This document shows, one piece after another, positions 2,791 through 53,816 of a stretch of 64,000 nucleotides of DNA. Each line of letters begins with the position of its first letter. Position 1 is the stretch's first letter. A program made the translations under genes and the position numbers. Source of the DNA: Lachnospiraceae bacterium (GTDB taxonomy: Bacteria; Bacillota; Clostridia; Lachnospirales; Lachnospiraceae); the NCBI GenBank assembly GCA_030524525.1, contig JAUNGI010000011.1, positions 1 through 64,000 on the forward strand, in the 5' to 3' direction. The notes below the pieces were generated by a model. That model searched no databases. It had not been told where the DNA came from and worked only from the letters and a program-made list of their open reading frames with translations.

Positions 2791-4372
2791 ATATAGCCAG
2801 ATTGATATCGCAAAAAAGATTTTGCTCCCGGCAGGAGAACTGGATGTTGGGAGGAGTGGGATAACGGTAATACATGGTGCAAACGGAACCGGGAAAACGC
2901 TGTTGACAAAAAGGGTTTTGGAATATTGCCAAGACAATGGTGTTCGTGTGGGCTATGTAGATCAGTCAAATCGGCTTATTCTGGAAAACCTTTCGGTTTT
3001 GGAAAATATTGCAATGTCTTCCGGCGCAGAGAAACAGCAGGAGGTTGCGCAGATACTGGAGCAATACGGCTTTAACGATTTGCTTGCCCGCGACAGCAGA
3101 AGGCTGAGCGGCGGTGAAAAACGGCTGGTTTGCTTGTTGCGGGAGTTATTGTTTGAAAATGACCTGTACATATTAGATGAACCAACGAACGACCTGTCAT
3201 ATGCTACGGTGGAGAAGCTGTTATATCTTATTTTGGGTGTATCTAATAGCAGACCTTTGGTGATTGTATCGCATGATGACCGTATTGCAAGATATGCCAA
3301 ACAGATTGTGACGTCAAAGAGAGGAACTGTGGAAGTCTGCCAAACAGAGCGGGTTTTTGCCGCCAATGAAATACAGCCTCTTAAGAAAGAATTGTCTTCC
3401 AAGTTTCTTCGAAAGAATTTTCCCGCCTTTTGGATGTTGCTGCTGTTTCTTCTGCTTCAGTTTTTATTGCTGGTGGGAGCGGGGTTGAGTCAAGAAGCGG
3501 ATACATCCGCGCGTCGGAAAATACAGAAGGATGATATGGAAATCTTTCTTCCCATATCGGAAAGCGGGAGGGAATATGCCGCTGACGCGGTGCCGATCGG
3601 TTTTGTGACTTTATTGTACAACGAATATACTGTTTGGGAGCTTATAGAGCTTTTTGAGGAGTTTGAGGAGAATTTTCAACGTGTAAGCACTGTGTTTGTA
3701 TTGGATGAACTTTATCAGAAGCTGCCCTGTGAAAAATATATTCGTGAGTTATATGACGCGGAAACTCAGACTTTCTTCTTTGATGCTTCCAACGAAGGAG
3801 GAACGCAAAGAATACAGGAGTTTCACAGCCAATTGCTGCAAAATCAAACTTCTCAGAGCTACATTTCCCATATAACGTTAACGGCCGATGACTGGCAAGA
3901 AGTGTATGCCATTCTGTGCGCAGATGAGTACAGGTATCGAAAGGTGTACGTATATTCTTCGGAGGTTGGGGAACTGGTTGAAAAAATAGAAGGCTTAATA
4001 CAACTGACCGTGTATGTAAAATATGAAGCGTTGGCTTTTTTGATAACGATTCTGAGCAGCCTGCTCATGGAGAAAAACTGGGCGAGAAGGAACAAGAATC
4101 GCGCAATGCTTTTTTATCAATACGGCTATAAAAAAGAAGAAGTCATTAGTAACTCCTTGAAGAAAAAGGATAACCTTCTGATTCTTGTTTCTTATTTTTG
4201 TGTGCTTCTTTTGTTTGGCTGCCTGTTCTGGTACGTTAAAAGGACAAGTCTGGAGCTGCTGCTTCCGTGGCTTTCTATTAGTATGGTGATGGCGCTTGCT
4301 GTTTATGCTATTCAGCGCAGGCTTCGTATCCATACGGTGCAGGGTGGAATGACTTGGAAATGGCGGGGATAA
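2780..4372 (+). CDS. ABC transporter, ATPase fused to FtsX-like permease (second of a pair)
   Basis: I chose the GTG at 2780, which has GAGAGG seven bases upstream and overlaps the end of the preceding gene; a TTG at 2765 is the alternative. The 530-residue product repeats its partner's plan. Walker A GANGTGKT is at 33-40, signature LSGGE at 109-113, Walker B LYILDEP at about 129-135 and the H-loop His at 165. A membrane segment follows near 215-235, then an outside domain and about three C-terminal helices. Sequence identity between the two fusions looks low outside the ATP-binding motifs, as expected for an old heterodimer. Both ATP sites look intact. Translation is probably coupled to the upstream fusion. 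Function is as a membrane exporter or extractor paired with the first fusion; the substrate cannot be read from sequence. Confidence 0.85.
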   Translation: MIVKYSQIDIAKKILLPAGELDVGRSGITVIHGANGTGKTLLTKRVLEYCQDNGVRVGYVDQSNRLILENLSVLENIAMSSGAEKQQEVAQILEQYGFNDLLARDSRRLSGGEKRLVCLLRELLFENDLYILDEPTNDLSYATVEKLLYLILGVSNSRPLVIVSHDDRIARYAKQIVTSKRGTVEVCQTERVFAANEIQPLKKELSSKFLRKNFPAFWMLLLFLLLQFLLLVGAGLSQEADTSARRKIQKDDMEIFLPISESGREYAADAVPIGFVTLLYNEYTVWELIELFEEFEENFQRVSTVFVLDELYQKLPCEKYIRELYDAETQTFFFDASNEGGTQRIQEFHSQLLQNQTSQSYISHITLTADDWQEVYAILCADEYRYRKVYVYSSEVGELVEKIEGLIQLTVYVKYEALAFLITILSSLLMEKNWARRNKNRAMLFYQYGYKKEEVISNSLKKKDNLLILVSYFCVLLLFGCLFWYVKRTSLELLLPWLSISMVMALAVYAIQRRLRIHTVQGGMTWKWRG

Positions 4373-46462: not shown

Positions 46463-49400
46463 ATGAAAGTAAAACAAAACGTAAAAAAAGGAATTGCTTT
46501 CTGCATGTGTGCAATGTTTTTGCTAAATCTATTGCCAATAGCAGATGTGTGTACGGATGGCGCTTTAGGTATCGTGAATGAAGCTGAAGCGGCGGTAACA
46601 TCTATTGATTCTGATACATATAACGAAAAAATGAATAGCTTTATAAACGATAGCAGGTATAAGGCAGGCGTTGCCTGTACAAATTGTTATACTTACGCAG
46701 AGTGGTTTACTCAGTATATGTTTGGAAGAAGTCCGAGAGGAGGCGATTCCTTTTCTAATCCATCAGAAATTCGCGCCGGAGATATACTTCATTTCTATCA
46801 TTCATGGAGTAGCGGTTCATCTCAGCATTGGATTGTCGTTTTAGCAAGAAATGGTAACTCTTTGTATACGGCAGAGGGGAATGTTAGCGGCGGCAAGGTA
46901 CGCATCTCGAATAATCAATACTGGATTGAAGGAAACCAGTTAAAAGAAAAAGGGTGTACGATAACCAGTTTTGACTGTGGGTATCATCATGCGAGTATAT
47001 CTTCGTCTGTTTCTGGGGAGTACCTTGGTACAGATTTTTATGCCTATATAGTTAACGTGAAACCATGGAAGCATCTCGCCAATCAGAATGGAAATGTAGT
47101 TACTTATGATATCAAAGGCGACGCAAATGATATTTGGAAATTTGATTGGCAGGGGGACGGCTCTTATATCATCACAAATGTAGCTAACGGCAAGGTTTTG
47201 GATGTATATGGTGCAAATTCCGCAAATGGGACAAATGTTCAGACATGGGAGTTAAATAGGGGCGACTCGCAGAAATGGTGTTTTATAAAGTCAGGAAATA
47301 ATTATGTTATTGTATCGCGCTGTGGAGGTAAGGTTCTTAATATTGACGAGAATTCAAATGCAATCATATGGGACAAGCATGGCGGTGACAATCAAATTTT
47401 TTCGGTGCGCCGTTTGACCAATGATATGGGGGGATATCTTCCCTTAAAGAGCCATGTAAATTCGAACGCGAAGGTTCCGTTGTATAGTGCAGCCAATGAT
47501 AATTCGAAAACGCAATACTATATCTACCCTGAAGATAATTGTACGATCAAAAAGTTTGAGGGGGATTGGGTGTACGTTAATGTACCATGGAGCGGAGGAG
47601 GAAGCCGCGATTATTGGACAAAATTAACCTATTTTATGTGGACACGCAGTACCGCTATTACAAAAACAGTTGCTTCGACTGCGGTATATTGGCGCTACGA
47701 TCGGCAAAACCAAATGGGAACAATTCCAGCGGGAACAGAATTGCGGGTAGTGAATTGGGGGAATACAAATAATGATGATAACAACCTGTCTTCACAAGTA
47801 ATCTACAAGACTTCATCAGGCTGGCAGATGGGCTGGGTAAAAACCTCAAATATTACCTATTACAACGTAATTTTTAACGCGAATGGCGGGACAGGAGCTC
47901 CGGGAACGCAGGTAAAGACAAAGAACATAGACCTGACGCTCAGCAGTACGGTTCCGACGCGAACCGGATATACGTTTACCGGCTGGAACACAAAGGCGGA
48001 TGGAACGGGAACGAGCTATGCCAAGGGGGCAAAGTATACTGCCAATGCAAGTGTTACCTTGTACGCTCAGTGGAAATCAAAAGAATATACATTAACAATT
48101 AATCCAAATGGCGGCACGATAAAGACAGAGGATGGAAAGACAGATACTACAAAACCTGTAAGTTATAATACAAAGCTTGTTTATGATAAGTCGAATTGGT
48201 GGAAAGTGCCGGTTTGTAAAAGGCTGGGGTACACATTGAATGGACTCTATACCGCGCCAAGTGCCGGAACAAAGGTTTATCTTGCGAATGGTGAATGCGT
48301 CAATGATGGTAAGTACTTCAAGGAGAAGAAGTATGTATATGCTGGAGATTTGAGCGTTTATGCGCAATGGATTCCTAATACATATACTGTAGTTTATAAC
48401 AGTAACGGAGCAACCTCTGGCACGACTGCTAGCTCATTGCATACATATGATACAGCAAAAACACTAACTGCTAATGGATTTTCAAAAAATGGATATACCT
48501 TTACAGGATGGAACACAAAAGCAGATGGAACAGGAACCGCTTATGGGAATAATCAATCTGTGAAAAACTTGACGGCTACAAACCAAGGGAAAGTTACCTT
48601 GTACGCTCAGTGGAGTATTAACAAGTACACCATAAGTTATAACGCCAATGGAGGTACGGGGGCGCCGGGAAATCAAACGAAGACCTATGGAAGTGACCTG
48701 ACGCTTAGCAGTACGGTTCCGACGCGAACCGGATATACGTTTACCGGCTGGAACACAAAAGCAGACGGAACGGGAACGAGCTATGCCAAGGGGGCAAAGT
48801 ATACTGCCAATGCAAGTGTTACCTTGTACGCTCAGTGGAAATCAAAAGAATATACATTAACAATTAATCCAAATGGCGGCACGATAAAGACAGAGGATGG
48901 AAAGACAGATACTACAAAACCTGTAAGTTATAATACAAAGCTTGTTTATGATAAGTCGAATTGGTGGAAAGTGCCGGTTTGTAAAAGGCTGGGGTACACA
49001 TTGAATGGACTCTATACCGCGCCAAGTGCCGGAACAAAGGTTTATCTTGCGAATGGTGAATGCGTCAATGATGGTAAGTACTTCAAGGAGAAGAAGTATG
49101 TATATGCTGGAGATTTGAGCGTTTATGCGCAATGGATTCCTAATACATATACTGTAGTTTATAACAGTAACGGAGCAACCTCTGGCACGACTGCTAGCTC
49201 ATTGCATACATATGATACAGCAAAAACACTAACTGCTAATGGATTTTCAAAAAATGGATATACCTTTACAGGATGGAACACAAAAGCAGATGGAACAGGA
49301 ACCGCTTATGGGAATAATCAATCTGTGAAAAACTTGACGGCAACAAACCAAGGGACAGTTACCTTGTATGCTCAGTGGAAAATAGAGAGTGTTTATAAGC

Positions 49401-49960
49401 TGCGCGTGGAAGGCTCCACGGTGCGCCAAGGAGAACAGGTTGCAGTTCCGGTGTATGTGGAAGGGACTGCAATAGGAAGTATACAAATAAAGGTTACATA
49501 TGACAGCACAAAATTAATGTATGTTGGAAACTCCTATTCGGCATTTGAGTCTACTGTTGTTAATGATGATGAAAAAGGCATTCTCTTTATTGCTGCTATG
49601 AATGAAGCAAACGGGAGTACGGGAAAGCTTTTTGTTCTAGACTTTAAGGCGATTGCAGATAAAACCTCTGAAACATCTATTGGTGTTACGGTAGAAGAAA
49701 GTGTAAACGAGCAGGAAAAAAATGTACCGTTGTCCGTTCAGGACGCAGTAATTAAAATCAGCAGTTTCTTGTTGGGGGATGTCAACGGAGACGGAAAGAT
49801 TACTGCACTGGATGCCCGCTGGGTGTTGCAAGCGGCGGCTGGAAAGAGGAATCTGGGTGAATACGAGCAAGCAGGTGATGTCAATGGGGACGGAAAGATC
49901 ACGGCACTTGACGCCCGCTGGATCTTGCAGGCGGCGGCTGGAAAAAGAAAATTGCAGTAA
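46463..49960 (+). CDS. Secreted cysteine-peptidase/lectin/InlB-repeat/cohesin/dockerin protein
   Basis: A 1165-residue secreted protein with a signal peptide (cut near 45, after EAEA) and GAGGAGG before the start. Domains in order: a papain-like cysteine peptidase/amidase (about 50-175, probable Cys75 and His122); a ricin-type beta-trefoil lectin (about 205-316); an SH3-like stretch (about 325-465); InlB/Listeria-Bacteroides repeats (about 468-975, ending TLYAQW); a cohesin-like domain (about 976-1095); and a dockerin (about 1104-1163) with two DVNGDGKITALDAR calcium loops. A cohesin and a dockerin in one chain is unusual, and the next gene encodes a wall-anchored cohesin protein. The repeats include an almost exact 765-bp duplication. 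The likely role is a cell-wall or host-glycan active enzyme displayed through cohesin-dockerin binding. Confidence 0.85.
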   Translation: MKVKQNVKKGIAFCMCAMFLLNLLPIADVCTDGALGIVNEAEAAVTSIDSDTYNEKMNSFINDSRYKAGVACTNCYTYAEWFTQYMFGRSPRGGDSFSNPSEIRAGDILHFYHSWSSGSSQHWIVVLARNGNSLYTAEGNVSGGKVRISNNQYWIEGNQLKEKGCTITSFDCGYHHASISSSVSGEYLGTDFYAYIVNVKPWKHLANQNGNVVTYDIKGDANDIWKFDWQGDGSYIITNVANGKVLDVYGANSANGTNVQTWELNRGDSQKWCFIKSGNNYVIVSRCGGKVLNIDENSNAIIWDKHGGDNQIFSVRRLTNDMGGYLPLKSHVNSNAKVPLYSAANDNSKTQYYIYPEDNCTIKKFEGDWVYVNVPWSGGGSRDYWTKLTYFMWTRSTAITKTVASTAVYWRYDRQNQMGTIPAGTELRVVNWGNTNNDDNNLSSQVIYKTSSGWQMGWVKTSNITYYNVIFNANGGTGAPGTQVKTKNIDLTLSSTVPTRTGYTFTGWNTKADGTGTSYAKGAKYTANASVTLYAQWKSKEYTLTINPNGGTIKTEDGKTDTTKPVSYNTKLVYDKSNWWKVPVCKRLGYTLNGLYTAPSAGTKVYLANGECVNDGKYFKEKKYVYAGDLSVYAQWIPNTYTVVYNSNGATSGTTASSLHTYDTAKTLTANGFSKNGYTFTGWNTKADGTGTAYGNNQSVKNLTATNQGKVTLYAQWSINKYTISYNANGGTGAPGNQTKTYGSDLTLSSTVPTRTGYTFTGWNTKADGTGTSYAKGAKYTANASVTLYAQWKSKEYTLTINPNGGTIKTEDGKTDTTKPVSYNTKLVYDKSNWWKVPVCKRLGYTLNGLYTAPSAGTKVYLANGECVNDGKYFKEKKYVYAGDLSVYAQWIPNTYTVVYNSNGATSGTTASSLHTYDTAKTLTANGFSKNGYTFTGWNTKADGTGTAYGNNQSVKNLTATNQGTVTLYAQWKIESVYKLRVEGSTVRQGEQVAVPVYVEGTAIGSIQIKVTYDSTKLMYVGNSYSAFESTVVNDDEKGILFIAAMNEANGSTGKLFVLDFKAIADKTSETSIGVTVEESVNEQEKNVPLSVQDAVIKISSFLLGDVNGDGKITALDARWVLQAAAGKRNLGEYEQAGDVNGDGKITALDARWILQAAAGKRKLQ
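47932..49385 (+). repeat. 765-bp tandem duplication inside the InlB-repeat region
   Basis: The segment from about 47932 to 48620 recurs at about 48697 to 49385, shifted by 765 bp (255 codons). Long blocks are identical, so that even the non-coding-strand frames at 48092-48367 and 48857-49132 encode the same 91 residues. This implies a recent duplication or ongoing recombination. Bounds are approximate. Confidence 0.85.
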
Positions 49961-50017: not shown

Positions 50018-51310
50018 ATGAAAAAAATAAGATTAGCAGTGATTGCGGTATTATTGTTGATAGTAATAAGTCTTCCTACCGTCATGGCTGAACAGGCTGA
50101 ACGCAAGGTAGTGCTTACCGTAACCAGTTCAAAAGAAAAAGTGGATGTGGGCGACACGGTAGAGGTTAAGGTGTCGATATCAGAAAATTCGGATATCGCT
50201 GCTCTGCAATTCATTTTATCCTATGATGCAGAGGCTGTAGAACTTGTATCGGACCCTGTCGCAGACCATTCGGAATTGATTTCTGTAATAAATGCAGACA
50301 CAAGCGGTGAGGTAATGGTTTCAGCAATGGCAAATGATACGGGGAAGGGGATTCGCACAGGAGGAACTCTGCTTACAGCATCCTTTAAGGTGTTGAAGCC
50401 TAACGCTATTTTCTTAATCTCCGAACTTCAGGAAGCATATGACTCTTTTGACAACGAAATAAGCGAAAACTTTGAAACGACAGAAGCAACTATTTCCTGT
50501 GCACATTCTTACAAAGAAACAACGGTAAAGACGGAAGCAGGATGTGAATCTACTGGCGTTCAAGTCATTGTATGCACGGTTTGTGACGAAGTGCTTGAAG
50601 AGGAAGAGATCCCCGCGACGGGTCATACGCAGGGCGAATGGAAGATCGTAGAAGAAGCGACCTGTACGGAGCCGGGCTATAAGGAAGCGTATTGTATAGT
50701 CTGCGGAGAAAAGGTTGCCGAGGAAGAAATTCCTGCAATTGGTCATACGCAGGGCGAATGGAAGATCGTAGAAGAAGCGACCTGTACGGAGCCGGGCTAT
50801 AAGGAAGCATATTGTACGAGCTGCGGAGAAAAGGTTGCCGAGGAAGAGATTCCTGCGACGGGTCACGTACCGGGTGAGTGGGCAGTTGTAGAGAAAGCAA
50901 CCTGTACGGAGCCGGGCTATCAGGAAGCGTATTGCACGGTTTGCGGAGAGAAGGTTGCCGAGGAAGAAACTCCTGCCAAGGGACACAGCTTTGGCGAATG
51001 GGTCGTAGTGGTGGAAGCAACTGCGGAAGAGAATGGTCAAGAAGAAAGAGTTTGCGCGGTCTGCGGGGAAAAAGAGGTGAGAAGTACGGAAAAATTAACA
51101 CCGGAAGCAACGCCATCTCCGGAGCCGACGAAAGAGCCGGAGGAAACTCCTTCCATAATGCCGACGGATGCGCCGAGCGCAACTCCGGCAACGGGAGACA
51201 ATAACGTGCCGACAACCGGGGAGAGTACGCCGATCGGTTTCTTGGCTATGGTGATGATTGCAATGGCGGCAGTGATAAGTGTCGCTGTCTGGAAGAAAAA
51301 AGAGGCGTAA
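50018..51310 (+). CDS. Wall-anchored cohesin protein with zinc-like CxxC repeats
   Basis: A 430-residue protein 57 bp after the dockerin protein, with AAAGGAGAG before the start. It has a signal peptide (cut near 24, VMA), a cohesin-like domain (about 30-155, VDVGDTVEVKVSIS, LQFILSYD, GTLLTASFKVL) and four or five 40-residue repeats (GEWKIVEEATCTEPGYKEAY) each with two CxxC-type cysteines and GHT at the start. The tail is a Pro/Thr spacer, then VPTTG (about 397-401), a membrane helix and KKKEA, a sortase signal with Val in place of Leu. This is the plan of a surface scaffoldin: it would hold a dockerin-bearing partner, here most simply the protein of the preceding gene. Which cohesin binds which dockerin needs binding tests. 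Confidence 0.8.
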   Translation: MKKIRLAVIAVLLLIVISLPTVMAEQAERKVVLTVTSSKEKVDVGDTVEVKVSISENSDIAALQFILSYDAEAVELVSDPVADHSELISVINADTSGEVMVSAMANDTGKGIRTGGTLLTASFKVLKPNAIFLISELQEAYDSFDNEISENFETTEATISCAHSYKETTVKTEAGCESTGVQVIVCTVCDEVLEEEEIPATGHTQGEWKIVEEATCTEPGYKEAYCIVCGEKVAEEEIPAIGHTQGEWKIVEEATCTEPGYKEAYCTSCGEKVAEEEIPATGHVPGEWAVVEKATCTEPGYQEAYCTVCGEKVAEEETPAKGHSFGEWVVVVEATAEENGQEERVCAVCGEKEVRSTEKLTPEATPSPEPTKEPEETPSIMPTDAPSATPATGDNNVPTTGESTPIGFLAMVMIAMAAVISVAVWKKKEA

Positions 51311-51400: not shown

Positions 51401-51493
51401 TTACATCTCAAAGCGTATTCTCCGTCTGGACTTTCCGTGCGATCTGCCTTATAATTTTGTTTGAAATTTTTCCGGAAACAGGAGCCTGACCGC

Positions 51494-53071
51494 ATGAACC
51501 GACTGCCATACAAAAAGACCATATATTTCCTGCTTTCGCTCGCCCTTTGGCTTCTGCTTTGGGAGCTGGCGGCTGTCCGTATGGACGAGCCGATCTTCCT
51601 GCCGCGCCCGTGGAGCGTGTTGGAGGCGGCGGGGCGGATCGTGCGGAGCGAAGCCTTTGGAACGGTGCTGTCCGGAAGTCTTCTGCGCATTGCCGCAGGC
51701 TTTGTTTTGGGGACGGCGGCAGGCGTTCTCTGCGCCGCGCTTTCCAGCCGCAGCGAGCTTCTGGCGGCGCTTCTGCGCCCGCCGCTCAAGCTGATAAAAA
51801 CCGTTCCGGTCGCCTCCTTTGTTATCTTGCTGCTGCTGTGGGTGGACGCGTCGGAGCTGTCCATGGTCATTTCCCTTTTGATCGTCATTCCCATCGTATT
51901 TGAGAACGTGAGCAAGGGGATCGGGGAGATCGACCCCCAAATGCGCGAAGCGGCATATGTATTTCACTGGAAACCGCTTCAACGGCTTCGCTATCTTGTT
52001 CTGCCTGCGGCAGCGCCTTATTTTCTTGCGGCGTGCCGCGCGGGGCTTGGCATGTGCTGGAAGGCGGGCGTGGCGGCGGAGATCATCGGACATGCCCGGA
52101 ATTCCATCGGCATTCAGTTGTATAACGCAAAGCTGACGCTCGATACGGAGGCGTTGTTTGCGTGGACGCTGCTTCTGCTCTTGGCAAGCGCCGTCTTTGC
52201 ATACGGAACGCTTACCCTGCTGCGTTTCTTCGAGCTGTGTCTGGTCGATCCCACCGAAAGGTATGATAAGCGGCGGGCAGTCGCCCGGATCTTAGGCATG
52301 CCGACTGCCGCAGGATCGCTTGTTTCCCGCGGAGAATCCGCCGCAGAAGCGCAGTCTGTCCCCGTTGAGCATTCCGTCAGCGGAAAGCAGCCTGTCCCCC
52401 AGCCGCCTGTCCCCGGTACGGCGGCAGCCTCCGTCTCTGCGATCACCAAAAGCTATTACGGAAGGATCGTTGTGCCGCCGGTCAGCGCCGAATTCGCCGT
52501 GGGAACGATCACGATTCTGCAAGGGCCTTCGGGCTGCGGGAAGACGACGCTGCTGCGGCTGCTTTTGGGGCTCGAAAAGCCGGACGGCGGAAGCGTGCGG
52601 CGCGCCGAGACGGTCGGCGTTTGCTTTCAGGAGAACCGTCTCTGCGAATGGGCGTCCGCATGGAAAAACGTGAAGCTCGGAGGAACCGGGCGGAGCAGGG
52701 AGGAGATCTGCCGGGCGCTGACGGCGTGCGGCATCCGTGAGACGGAGCGTCAGCCGGTTCGCGAGTTCTCCGGGGGAATGAAGCGACGGGTGGCGCTTTT
52801 GCGCGCGCTGATGAATCCGGGCAGCCTTTGCGTGCTGGACGAACCGTTCCACGGGCTTGATGAAGAAAGAAAAGCGCAGCTTGCGGCGTGGGTAAGGCAG
52901 AAGGCGAGGGCTGCGGCGGTGGTGCTTGTAACGCACGACGCGTCGGAGATCGCGTTCTTTGCGCAGGAGAACCTTCCCATGCAGCTGCTTCGCTGGAACG
53001 AAGCAGGGGAGATTTCCGTGGAAGCAGAGTTGAATTCAGATAACAGGAACGAAAAGTGGGACAAAATATAG
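51494..53071 (+). CDS. ABC importer, SsuC-like permease fused to SsuB-like ATPase
   Basis: I chose the ATG at 51494 (AGGAG upstream) over a TTG at 51461; it gives 525 residues. The N-terminal half is a six-helix permease of the nitrate/sulfonate/taurine type (about 10-245), with the EAA-type loop PQMREAAYVFHWKPLQRLRYLVLP. The C-terminal half is an ATPase: Walker A GPSGCGKT (about 345-352), signature EFSGGM, Walker B LCVLDEP, H-loop VTHD. Between them is a Pro/Ala/Ser-rich linker (about 270-320). In most bacteria these are two genes, so fusion is unusual. The substrate-binding lipoprotein is not next to it. It probably imports a sulfonate, pyrimidine precursor (ThiXYZ-like) or similar organic molecule. 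Confidence 0.85.
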   Translation: MNRLPYKKTIYFLLSLALWLLLWELAAVRMDEPIFLPRPWSVLEAAGRIVRSEAFGTVLSGSLLRIAAGFVLGTAAGVLCAALSSRSELLAALLRPPLKLIKTVPVASFVILLLLWVDASELSMVISLLIVIPIVFENVSKGIGEIDPQMREAAYVFHWKPLQRLRYLVLPAAAPYFLAACRAGLGMCWKAGVAAEIIGHARNSIGIQLYNAKLTLDTEALFAWTLLLLLASAVFAYGTLTLLRFFELCLVDPTERYDKRRAVARILGMPTAAGSLVSRGESAAEAQSVPVEHSVSGKQPVPQPPVPGTAAASVSAITKSYYGRIVVPPVSAEFAVGTITILQGPSGCGKTTLLRLLLGLEKPDGGSVRRAETVGVCFQENRLCEWASAWKNVKLGGTGRSREEICRALTACGIRETERQPVREFSGGMKRRVALLRALMNPGSLCVLDEPFHGLDEERKAQLAAWVRQKARAAAVVLVTHDASEIAFFAQENLPMQLLRWNEAGEISVEAELNSDNRNEKWDKI

Positions 53072-53149: not shown

Positions 53150-53178
53150 TTGACAATTCCTTTGGCATGTGGTAAAGT
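53150..53178 (+). promoter_or_regulatory. Promoter of the mini-ORF array
   Basis: TTGACA (53150-53155), a 17-bp spacer, and TAAAGT (53173-53178). Transcription would start near 53185, about 45 bp before the first motif copy. Confidence 0.7.
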
Positions 53179-53184
53179 TAAGAC

Positions 53185-53662
53185 AACAAAAAGAGAGACG
53201 ACAACAACAAACCATAGAAAAGAAAAAGAAAGGCAGGTACGGTCCAATGAAAATGTAAAGCTTTCATCGGAAACCCAAACCAGAAAAGGAAGGTACGGTC
53301 CAATGGGAAAGTAAAAACCATCTGAATCAAAACCAAAGAATCGAACATCGAACATCGAACATCGAAAAACAAATCTAAGACTTGAGATTTCAAAAAGAAC
53401 GAAAAAGGAAGGTACAGTCCAATGGGACGTTAGATTGAATAACGAACCAAAACCAGACGAAAGTATTTGATAGAGAGGTATCGTCCGATGTACACATAAA
53501 TTTAACGATCTTCATCTTATGAAAGGCAGGTACGGTCCAAAGGAAATTTAACGTGTATCACCTCAAAAAACAAATTTTCGAAAGGTAGGTACAGTCCACC
53601 GAACTCAGAATAAAGCAATAAATCAAAAATACGCAGGGAGGAGCGCTCGCTCCTCCCTTTGA
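53185..53662 (+). ncRNA. Predicted non-coding transcript with an array of Shine-Dalgarno/mini-ORF motifs
   Basis: About 480 bases of purine- and A/C-rich DNA with no long plus-strand frame, bounded by a good promoter and a GGGAGGAGCG/CGCTCCTCCC hairpin (about 53637-53658). The hairpin's T-tract is only TTT. Inside are six copies of AAAGGNAGGTACRGTCCA at intervals of 52-119 bp, all in the same direction. The ends are inferred. Confidence 0.55.
53229..53613 (+). repeat. Six-copy motif AAAGGNAGGTACRGTCCA, four with ATG-NNN-NNN-stop
   Basis: GGTAC lies at 53236, 53292, 53411, 53477 (GGTAT), 53529 and 53588. Copies 1-4 continue to ATG at 53247, 53303, 53422 and 53488, each followed by exactly two codons and a stop (AAA-ATG-TAA, GGA-AAG-TAA, GGA-CGT-TAG, TAC-ACA-TAA). 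Copy 5 has AAG at the start position but keeps TAA at the same distance. Copy 6 has CCG and a TAA one codon later. A 7-bp TCGAACA repeat sits in the wide gap between copies 2 and 3. Confidence 0.85.
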
Positions 53663-53712: not shown

Positions 53713-53741
53713 TTGACATCTGGGGCTGTGGATGCTAATAT
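53713..53741 (+). promoter_or_regulatory. Promoter of mntP
   Basis: TTGACA (53713-53718), a 17-bp spacer, and TAATAT (53736-53741). Confidence 0.8.
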
Positions 53742-53777
53742 TTTTCGAAAGAAAATCCGTTGGGAAGGTTGAATTTA

Positions 53778-53816
53778 CTCGGGCACTGCATCGCTGCTCC
53801 CGGGTTTTCTTTTTCT
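53778..53816 (+). terminator. Terminator-like hairpin in the mntP leader
   Basis: CTCGGG (53778-53783) can pair with CCCGGG (53799-53804), followed by TTTTCTTTTTC, 26 bp before the mntP start. It may be an attenuator. I could not match the leader to the yybP-ykoY manganese riboswitch that often precedes mntP. Confidence 0.5.

Follow-up and report, generated by a model that had tools for sequence, protein, structure and literature searches.

Shine-Dalgarno units with immediate stop codons in a putative stand-alone RNA of Clostridia and phages, arrayed in one Lachnospiraceae lineage

The window analysed here, by which we mean the whole stretch of 64,000 nucleotides from a Lachnospiraceae bacterium, contains a putative RNA gene between an ABC transporter permease-ATPase gene (51461–53071, + strand, read by eye) and mntP. 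The transporter gene is preceded by two repeat-rich, probably secreted proteins (46463–49960 and 50018–51310), in which duplicated blocks and CxxC-type repeats can be seen by eye. Directly 5' of mntP, at 53713–53812, a second promoter-like sequence (TTGACA-17-TAATAT) has a GC-rich hairpin and then a T-rich tract behind it; this element looks like an attenuator leader and had no Rfam match above the gathering cut-off.

The RNA gene itself carries six Shine-Dalgarno (SD)-like units on the + strand. Five of them contain exact copies of AAAGGNAGGTACRGTCCA, starting at 53229, 53285, 53404, 53522 and 53581, and the fourth, at 53470, has the degenerate copy ATAGAGAGGTATCGTCCG. At up to three mismatches, AAAGGNAGGTACRGTCCA has five matches in the window against 0.12 expected, a number reached in none of 100 shuffles, and the 12-base core AGGTACRGTCCA occurs in the window's genome in five exact copies, all inside the array, with seven one-mismatch matches scattered elsewhere. 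In units 1 to 4 the motif leads into a start codon, two codons and a stop: unit 1 (53229–53258) has its motif at 53229–53246 and the mini-ORF ATG AAA ATG TAA at 53247–53258, with a predicted 16S rRNA duplex of −20.6 kcal/mol; unit 2 (53285–53314) its motif at 53285–53302 and ATG GGA AAG TAA at 53303–53314 (−16.8 kcal/mol); unit 3 (53404–53433) its motif at 53404–53421 and ATG GGA CGT TAG at 53422–53433 (−14.6 kcal/mol); and unit 4 (53470–53499) its degenerate motif at 53470–53487 and ATG TAC ACA TAA at 53488–53499 (−14.7 kcal/mol). Unit 5 (53522–53551; motif 53522–53539) has AAG in place of ATG, giving AAG GAA ATT TAA (predicted duplex −19.9 kcal/mol), and unit 6 (53581–53613; motif 53581–53598), also without a start, reads CCG AAC TCA GAA TAA (−18.2 kcal/mol), its in-frame stop coming one codon later than in units 1 to 5. 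The common orientation and the spacing of 56, 119, 66, 52 and 59 bp that a preliminary description of this DNA had given were confirmed, and we read copies 1 to 4, as well as the AAG and in-register TAA of copy 5, exactly as it did.

A sigma-70 type promoter precedes the array (53150–53178, + strand; TTGACA-17-TAAAGT, with TG ahead of the second hexamer). The earlier assessment of this promoter as good holds for the match to the consensus, but the match is weak when taken alone, since the region contains three promoter-like sites against 1.2 in shuffles. Genus relatives with a promoter call likewise have a TTGACA promoter 5' of the first unit. The hairpin that had been noticed behind the array is present, a GC-rich stem at 53635–53658 (+ strand) that we take as the RNA end, but its + strand U-tract (TTTGATCT) is weak and the terminator scan made a call there on the − strand only. 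At the sister locus L064 a similar hairpin is followed by TTTTG, and in relatives hairpins 3' of the last unit are visible by eye. The RNA of the array (53186–53628) folds like shuffled sequence (z −0.19; 38 of 100 shuffles equally good), which fits the description of its spacers as unstructured.

Two features of the motif were considered and discarded. A pairing of AGGTA-GGTC with a downstream GATC-TACCT, possible in start-less units of the genus, is weak, reaching the 5% level against shuffled downstream sequence in 11 of 50 start-less and 6 of 65 ATG units. A translated peptide repeat, G-R/W-Y-x-P, was rejected because most units lack a preceding start and in many the flanking frame is interrupted immediately 5'; since the motif finder required this peptide, the invariance of GGTA and CC is partly a selection effect.

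The motif should pair strongly with the 3' tail of 16S rRNA, as proposed before, if the assumed tail GGAUCACCUCCUUUCU, which may not be the host's, is correct. This sequence was not found, at one mismatch allowed, in the 15 same-genus assemblies searched; three other genomes of the order carry it with one mismatch. The median predicted pairing to the assumed tail is −16.8 kcal/mol for 216 ATG units and −17.8 kcal/mol for 183 others, against about −6 kcal/mol for shuffled sequences. For comparison, the 94 long ORFs of the window, some of them spurious, have best ribosome-binding sites with a median of −9.3 kcal/mol; the tenth percentile is −14.0 and the lowest value −17.5 kcal/mol. The conserved block behind the SD, UACRGWCC, is explained by 16S pairing in part only, the R/W variants breaking pairs; as these variable positions ignore it, an additional GGUCC:GGAUC pairing across a two-base bulge is only possible.

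We scanned 61 genomes with a 16-base pattern, allowing one mismatch, and found matches in 27. The window's genus accounts for 20 of these, out of its 22 genomes, and there the matches cluster on a single strand; the other seven lie beyond the genus and have isolated matches, some of which are real homologues. Both genomes of the genus that the pattern missed (G016, G020) are assemblies 80–82% complete. The 20 genus loci contain 5–12 units each by one count and 4–11, with a total of 141, by a stricter one, some arrays being cut by contig ends, and the units within each array share one strand, which is that of the promoter. In two of the longer arrays (L060, L063), about 230 bases without units, alike by eye, lie between an MGTTE unit and the first MK unit; this stretch may be a separate domain.

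The upstream ABC transporter gene (cluster C1) is present in 17 of 20 compared loci, and in two of the remaining three the array stands at the contig start. The downstream gene is variable: by eye, it is mntP in the window and one sister, pyrophosphatase-like in several loci and others elsewhere, so that we rejected the idea of an mntP leader. Across 78 loci, 37 downstream genes are on the same strand, 36 are on the opposite one and 5 loci have none, the largest downstream cluster counting five. With no recurrent same-strand downstream gene among these 78 loci, the RNA does not appear to be a cis-acting leader.

Beyond the genus, we searched with a sequence-only model (R1) built on 38 units, of which the genus supplied 33 and three other genera five. 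It matched 162 of 299 Lachnospiraceae genomes (E≤0.05) and 29 of 391 genomes of the class (E≤0.003), 20 of the latter outside Lachnospiraceae, at least one of these 20 (L174) being by eye the ribosome-binding site of an ordinary gene. The loci we read are built alike: behind a promoter of its own the RNA carries at least one unit close to the 5' end, then a middle that varies in length, and often another SD that leads into a mini-ORF directly ahead of the terminator or within it. The 5' unit is either an SD with a start-stop mini-ORF or an SD without a start, and many relatives have one or two units only. Of 57 loci, 49 had a promoter call; in these the first unit lies 49–314 nt from the promoter, and less than 165 nt from it in 43; in other Clostridia the first unit starts, by eye, a few nucleotides past the expected transcription start. 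One locus (L118) carries the RNA gene twice, in tandem, at about 2098–2540 and 2854–3110 in reverse-complement coordinates, each by eye with a separate promoter and terminator. Many of the genomes are metagenome assemblies, the pattern scans catch close matches only, the counts given here disregard kinship, and gene identities in bacterial contexts are mostly by eye. Judged from its sequence, the element is a putative stand-alone RNA of many gut and rumen Clostridia and some phages, and the window holds a multiplied form of it from one lineage.

Because R1 includes the ATG and stop columns, its matches are not neutral on whether starts and stops keep register. The cleanest test is a scan of species genomes whose pattern stops at the ATG, which gave 84 distinct matches from 80 of 100 matching stretches. 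A stop follows after exactly two codons in 52 of these, within two in 57 and within ten in 76, kinship being ignored, whereas in the other frames a stop within two codons occurs in 10 (+1) and 9 (+2). One of the 57 early-stop matches lies in Algoriphagus and is taken as chance. The scan also picked up a unit (locus L201) in Blautia sp. MSJ-9, a cultured Lachnospiraceae. The eight matches without a stop within ten codons are from Psychrobacter (3), Flavobacteriales, an Acidobacteria bacterium and three clostridial loci, L196 (at a contig end), L197 and L232; in the last two the unit is present and lacks an early stop. Further peaks at four (11 matches), five (4) and seven codons (4) resemble by eye the 3' mini-ORFs described below.

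For Clostridia outside the family we assembled 38 complete RNAs, 15 from the stop-containing model and 23 from the pattern without a stop, from 42 loci picked by eye minus four without a terminator call (L187, L210, L197, L232). Their 5' mini-ORF consists of ATG, two codons and a stop in 34 and of ATG, one codon and a stop in four; an equally early stop occurs in none of the 38 in either other frame. A broader collection of 410 distinct units, in which part of the loci had been fetched by an ATG-requiring pattern and kinship is ignored, comprises 220 with and 190 without ATG. The former stop within two codons in 149 cases, against 8% in each of the other frames, and roughly one third of them have four or more codons. 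The latter have AAG (103), CCA/CCG (47), ACA (19), TTG/GTG (6) or other codons (15) in place of the start, and 131 of the 190 stop after exactly two codons, a register that could be inherited. Within the genus, four ATG units of the sister genome G006 hold the ATG-stop register despite changed codons in two and a changed stop in one, and in some start-less units the stop position drifts.

The register thus appears conserved in ATG-bearing units, in homologues that were in part picked blind to the stop. This supports an element acting at the RNA level, and the conservation of ATG, two codons and stop that had been predicted holds for these units, but 190 of 410 have no ATG. The homologous arrays whose absence, like free drift of the register, was to count against the idea do exist; it is start-less genus units, some of them, that drift. 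The 190 units without ATG speak against a pure start-stop design, as does the window RNA, which has no second mini-ORF at its 3' end, unlike many relatives.

This second mini-ORF is the other recurrent feature of the RNA. All 38 complete RNAs from outside the family have one behind the last SD, mostly MLDIKSEQK-like, starting with ATG in 36 and with TTG and GTG in one each, where the finder took only these three starts and the alignment had been chosen by the SD, not the start. Lengths vary by whole codons, and in these other Clostridia the stop codon lies in or adjoins the terminator stem. Within the family, the mini-ORFs read MDSIV, MDNEI, MIEPAM and similar. A terminator was called behind a unit in 47 of 57 family loci, and 25 of these 47 terminators have an SD with a mini-ORF ending at the stem; among the 206 further terminators of these loci 6 do. 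The strict SD rule misses mini-ORFs seen by eye (L087, L088, L137), and some of those called look accidental (L085, L092). The 25 family mini-ORFs start with ATG (16), TTG (7) or GTG (2).

A second model (R2), restricted to the 3' element, had matches in 23 of 391 class genomes (E≤0.01) and in one of 299 phylum genomes (E≤0.001; locus L307), with weak class matches also in G414, G416 and G564. Eight R2 loci were inspected and six have a 5' unit, L288, L289 and L293 not being independent of earlier matches. The loci L281, L287 and L301, which were outside R2 training, show a start-stop unit upstream by eye, that of L287 being degenerate (profile score 0.4). In L307 and the weak class match L296 no 5' unit was seen, and both were dismissed as chance.

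Between the two ends, RNAs from outside the family have a structured middle. A hairpin loop G-R-C-G can pair with a downstream CGY; among 31 distinct sequences, 29 have R and Y in agreement (uncorrected Fisher p 1.5e-7). Of 41 loci, 27, with 26 distinct sequences, were recognized as having this pseudoknot by a regular expression and five more by eye, the rest being without it or diverged. A helix of the type GCCUUUUGC/GCAAAAGGU, in which compensating changes are visible by eye, is a candidate long-range pairing: by raw count, a run of at least six pairs occurs in 35 of 38 loci, at differing positions. The structured middle suggests further functions of the RNA in these families. Taken together, the array of the window would be the expanded form, particular to one lineage, of a more widespread RNA, whose 3' end in many relatives is a second mini-ORF at the terminator.

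A pattern scan of IMG/VR yielded 30 matches on 29 viral contigs. A stop within two codons ends 29 of them, and the remaining one (L322) opens a longer ORF; after deduplication 20 of 21 have such a stop, the alternative frames giving 7 (+1) and 1 (+2), so the contrast is poorer for frame +1. The 25 viral rows with a promoter and a unit share one layout, in which TTGACA...TATAATATAATTG is followed by an ATG unit of one or two codons and, after about 30–50 nt, by a second unit that mostly begins ATG-GAC-. Of 21 rows, 19 gave a call for the second mini-ORF (MDNVA, MDSVA, MDTVA, MDNVN, MDRIA and others) and L324 shows it by eye; one row is not the element. By eye, a terminator-like hairpin with a T-run comes next. 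This compact RNA, of less than about 200 nt, contains little besides two units and a terminator. One viral contig (L336) has two copies of it. Among the neighbours of the RNA in three scanned contigs are genes of replication: those for a Pol III alpha-like polymerase, a Dda-like helicase and NrdD in L316, and for a DnaB-like helicase and a primase in L330 and L334. BLAST of one phage RNA against annotated phages gave no match; a second hit 71 records, none with 80% query coverage, and the 20 listed covered 11–19%, mostly of an A/T-rich end, and are taken as chance.

With strong 16S complementarity and an immediate stop, each unit should be a site where ribosomes dock or idle. An ATG unit would load a ribosome, which would terminate almost at once and reload on the same strong SD, and a start-less unit would dock a 30S subunit; the RNA would in this way park or idle ribosomes along its own length, and the window's lineage would have raised the number of sites to 5–12. 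Roles in the cell could be the titration or storage of ribosomes, the sensing of initiation capacity or the protection of this RNA. We count the lack of a shared downstream neighbour, the 3' mini-ORF, the register, the 16S pairing, the sparse phage versions and the start-stop units upstream of the 3' element in L281, L287 and L301 in favour of this explanation, together with the published behaviour of strong SDs and minigenes described below, and would put the chances about even that the array is a multiplied stand-alone RNA whose SD and start-stop units hold ribosomes. An RNA that captures ribosomes was among the original proposals and is the one we tentatively favour over stabilisation or another role; as a whole, the preliminary description is partly supported.

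The nearest precedents for such units are minigenes, which are generally single elements in leaders and to which lambda bar belongs. The minigenes axe-txe mg2 and EHEC LEE1 share with the present units an SD, an ATG, one or a few codons and a stop; according to PMC8708949, the ribosome can cycle on the strong SD and re-initiates without dissociation, and these minigenes are single leader elements, whereas here they would make up most of a conserved stand-alone RNA, at two positions and in arrays. The succession of SD, start, one or two codons and in-frame stop is conserved among our sequences and seen in four of the six window units, translation itself being putative.

The best of the alternatives, which we nevertheless regard as unlikely, is that the units serve to stabilise the RNA from its 5' side: by docking or idling near the 5' end, a ribosome would block 5'-to-3' decay of the RNase J type, and the function would reside in the middle or 3' part of the RNA. 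The STAB-SD elements of Bacilli are such stabilisers and generally occur in single copy. In our sequences, too, an SD-like motif is found near the 5' end with the start codon dispensable, and stabilisation by it is putative. Strong SDs of this kind, also start-less and near the RNA 5' end, stabilise RNA in Bacilli (cryIIIA, hbs), with ribosome holding expected, according to PMC3997798. The position of the first unit in other Clostridia, a few nucleotides past the expected transcription start, agrees with this, as do the covarying pseudoknot and the candidate long-range helix in the middle of the non-family RNAs. STAB-SDs sit in leaders of protein genes, whereas the new RNA is without a long ORF and has several units, start-stop mini-ORFs and often a 3' mini-ORF; this last element a stabiliser leaves unexplained. 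A single unit should moreover do, yet the genus carries 5–12, and titration fits this number better than stabilisation does. The phage versions, finally, are almost without a middle; as their RNA has little else to offer, we would argue that the ribosome sites are the function.

Somewhat more improbable is a sponge, in which the units would be decoys, drawing a base-pairing RNA or an RNA-binding protein away from the translation starts that it normally targets. Sponge RNAs of the CsrB/RsmZ type have many copies of a short motif in a stand-alone RNA, and the arrays with their 5–12 copies and unstructured spacers resemble them in this; the conserved bases beyond the SD and the frequency of non-ATG units would suit a decoy as well. 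However, the ATG-stop register and the open 3' mini-ORF are needless for a decoy, and no partner is known. CsrA sites are GGA motifs in hairpin loops, whereas here the array folds like shuffles, unit hairpins are weak and the motif is GGUAYRGWCC; stops in register with starts, the 16S complementarity and the lack of an Rfam match are further differences.

We consider it quite improbable that the RNA is a translation-controlled terminator or sensor, in which ribosomes ending the 3' mini-ORF melt the stem, so that RNA length or read-through reports initiation capacity. This would account for stops in or adjoining the stem in other Clostridia and at the stem in 25 of 47 family loci, and ribosomes of E. 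coli do repress terminators near stop codons, according to PMC4824070. Against it, the downstream genes lie on mixed strands and have no member in common, the window RNA lacks the 3' mini-ORF, and in phages the stop lies, by eye, roughly 15–25 nt before the stem.

Plasmid iterons are repeats beside a replication gene without a coding signature, and an array of iterons or other binding sites in DNA, to which the spaced direct repeats with their imperfect GG...CC core might point and which had been named as the main alternative to an RNA, is highly improbable, given that by eye no replication gene stands beside the array in the window, that the array units are all on the promoter strand, and that in-frame stops in codon register, a promoter and terminator, and RNA covariation in relatives accompany it.

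If ribosomes are indeed held on these units, the RNA would be of a new kind, acting directly on the translation machinery, or reporting it, in one of the major bacterial groups of gut and rumen. Going further, one could see in it an RNA class whose product is ribosome occupancy, Clostridia-wide, arrayed in one lineage and present in large phages in a compact two-mini-ORF form that may interfere with or tune host translation; this broader proposal is tentative, and we think it less likely than not. The phage-borne version hints that host translation could be tuned during infection.

As far as tested by Rfam 15 and the open-access literature, the RNA as a whole lies outside described families, in keeping with the earlier remark that no family of this design is known. 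At the gathering cut-off, Rfam 15 had no match for the RNA in the window and 20 family loci, and at relaxed thresholds (E≤5 for parts of L063 and the window, E≤0.5 for 14 class loci) no family covers it; a likeness to T-boxes was discarded for want of an Rfam match. In the open-access literature searched we found no RNA composed of little more than ribosome landing sites with immediate stops. Near the loci, the only matches above gathering were to rRNA, tRNA, Gut-1 and Clostridiales-1, those below it being taken as chance. The last two are known small RNAs that adjoin the new one, Clostridiales-1 at L120 (2486–2640) and Gut-1 at L155 (2099–2173).
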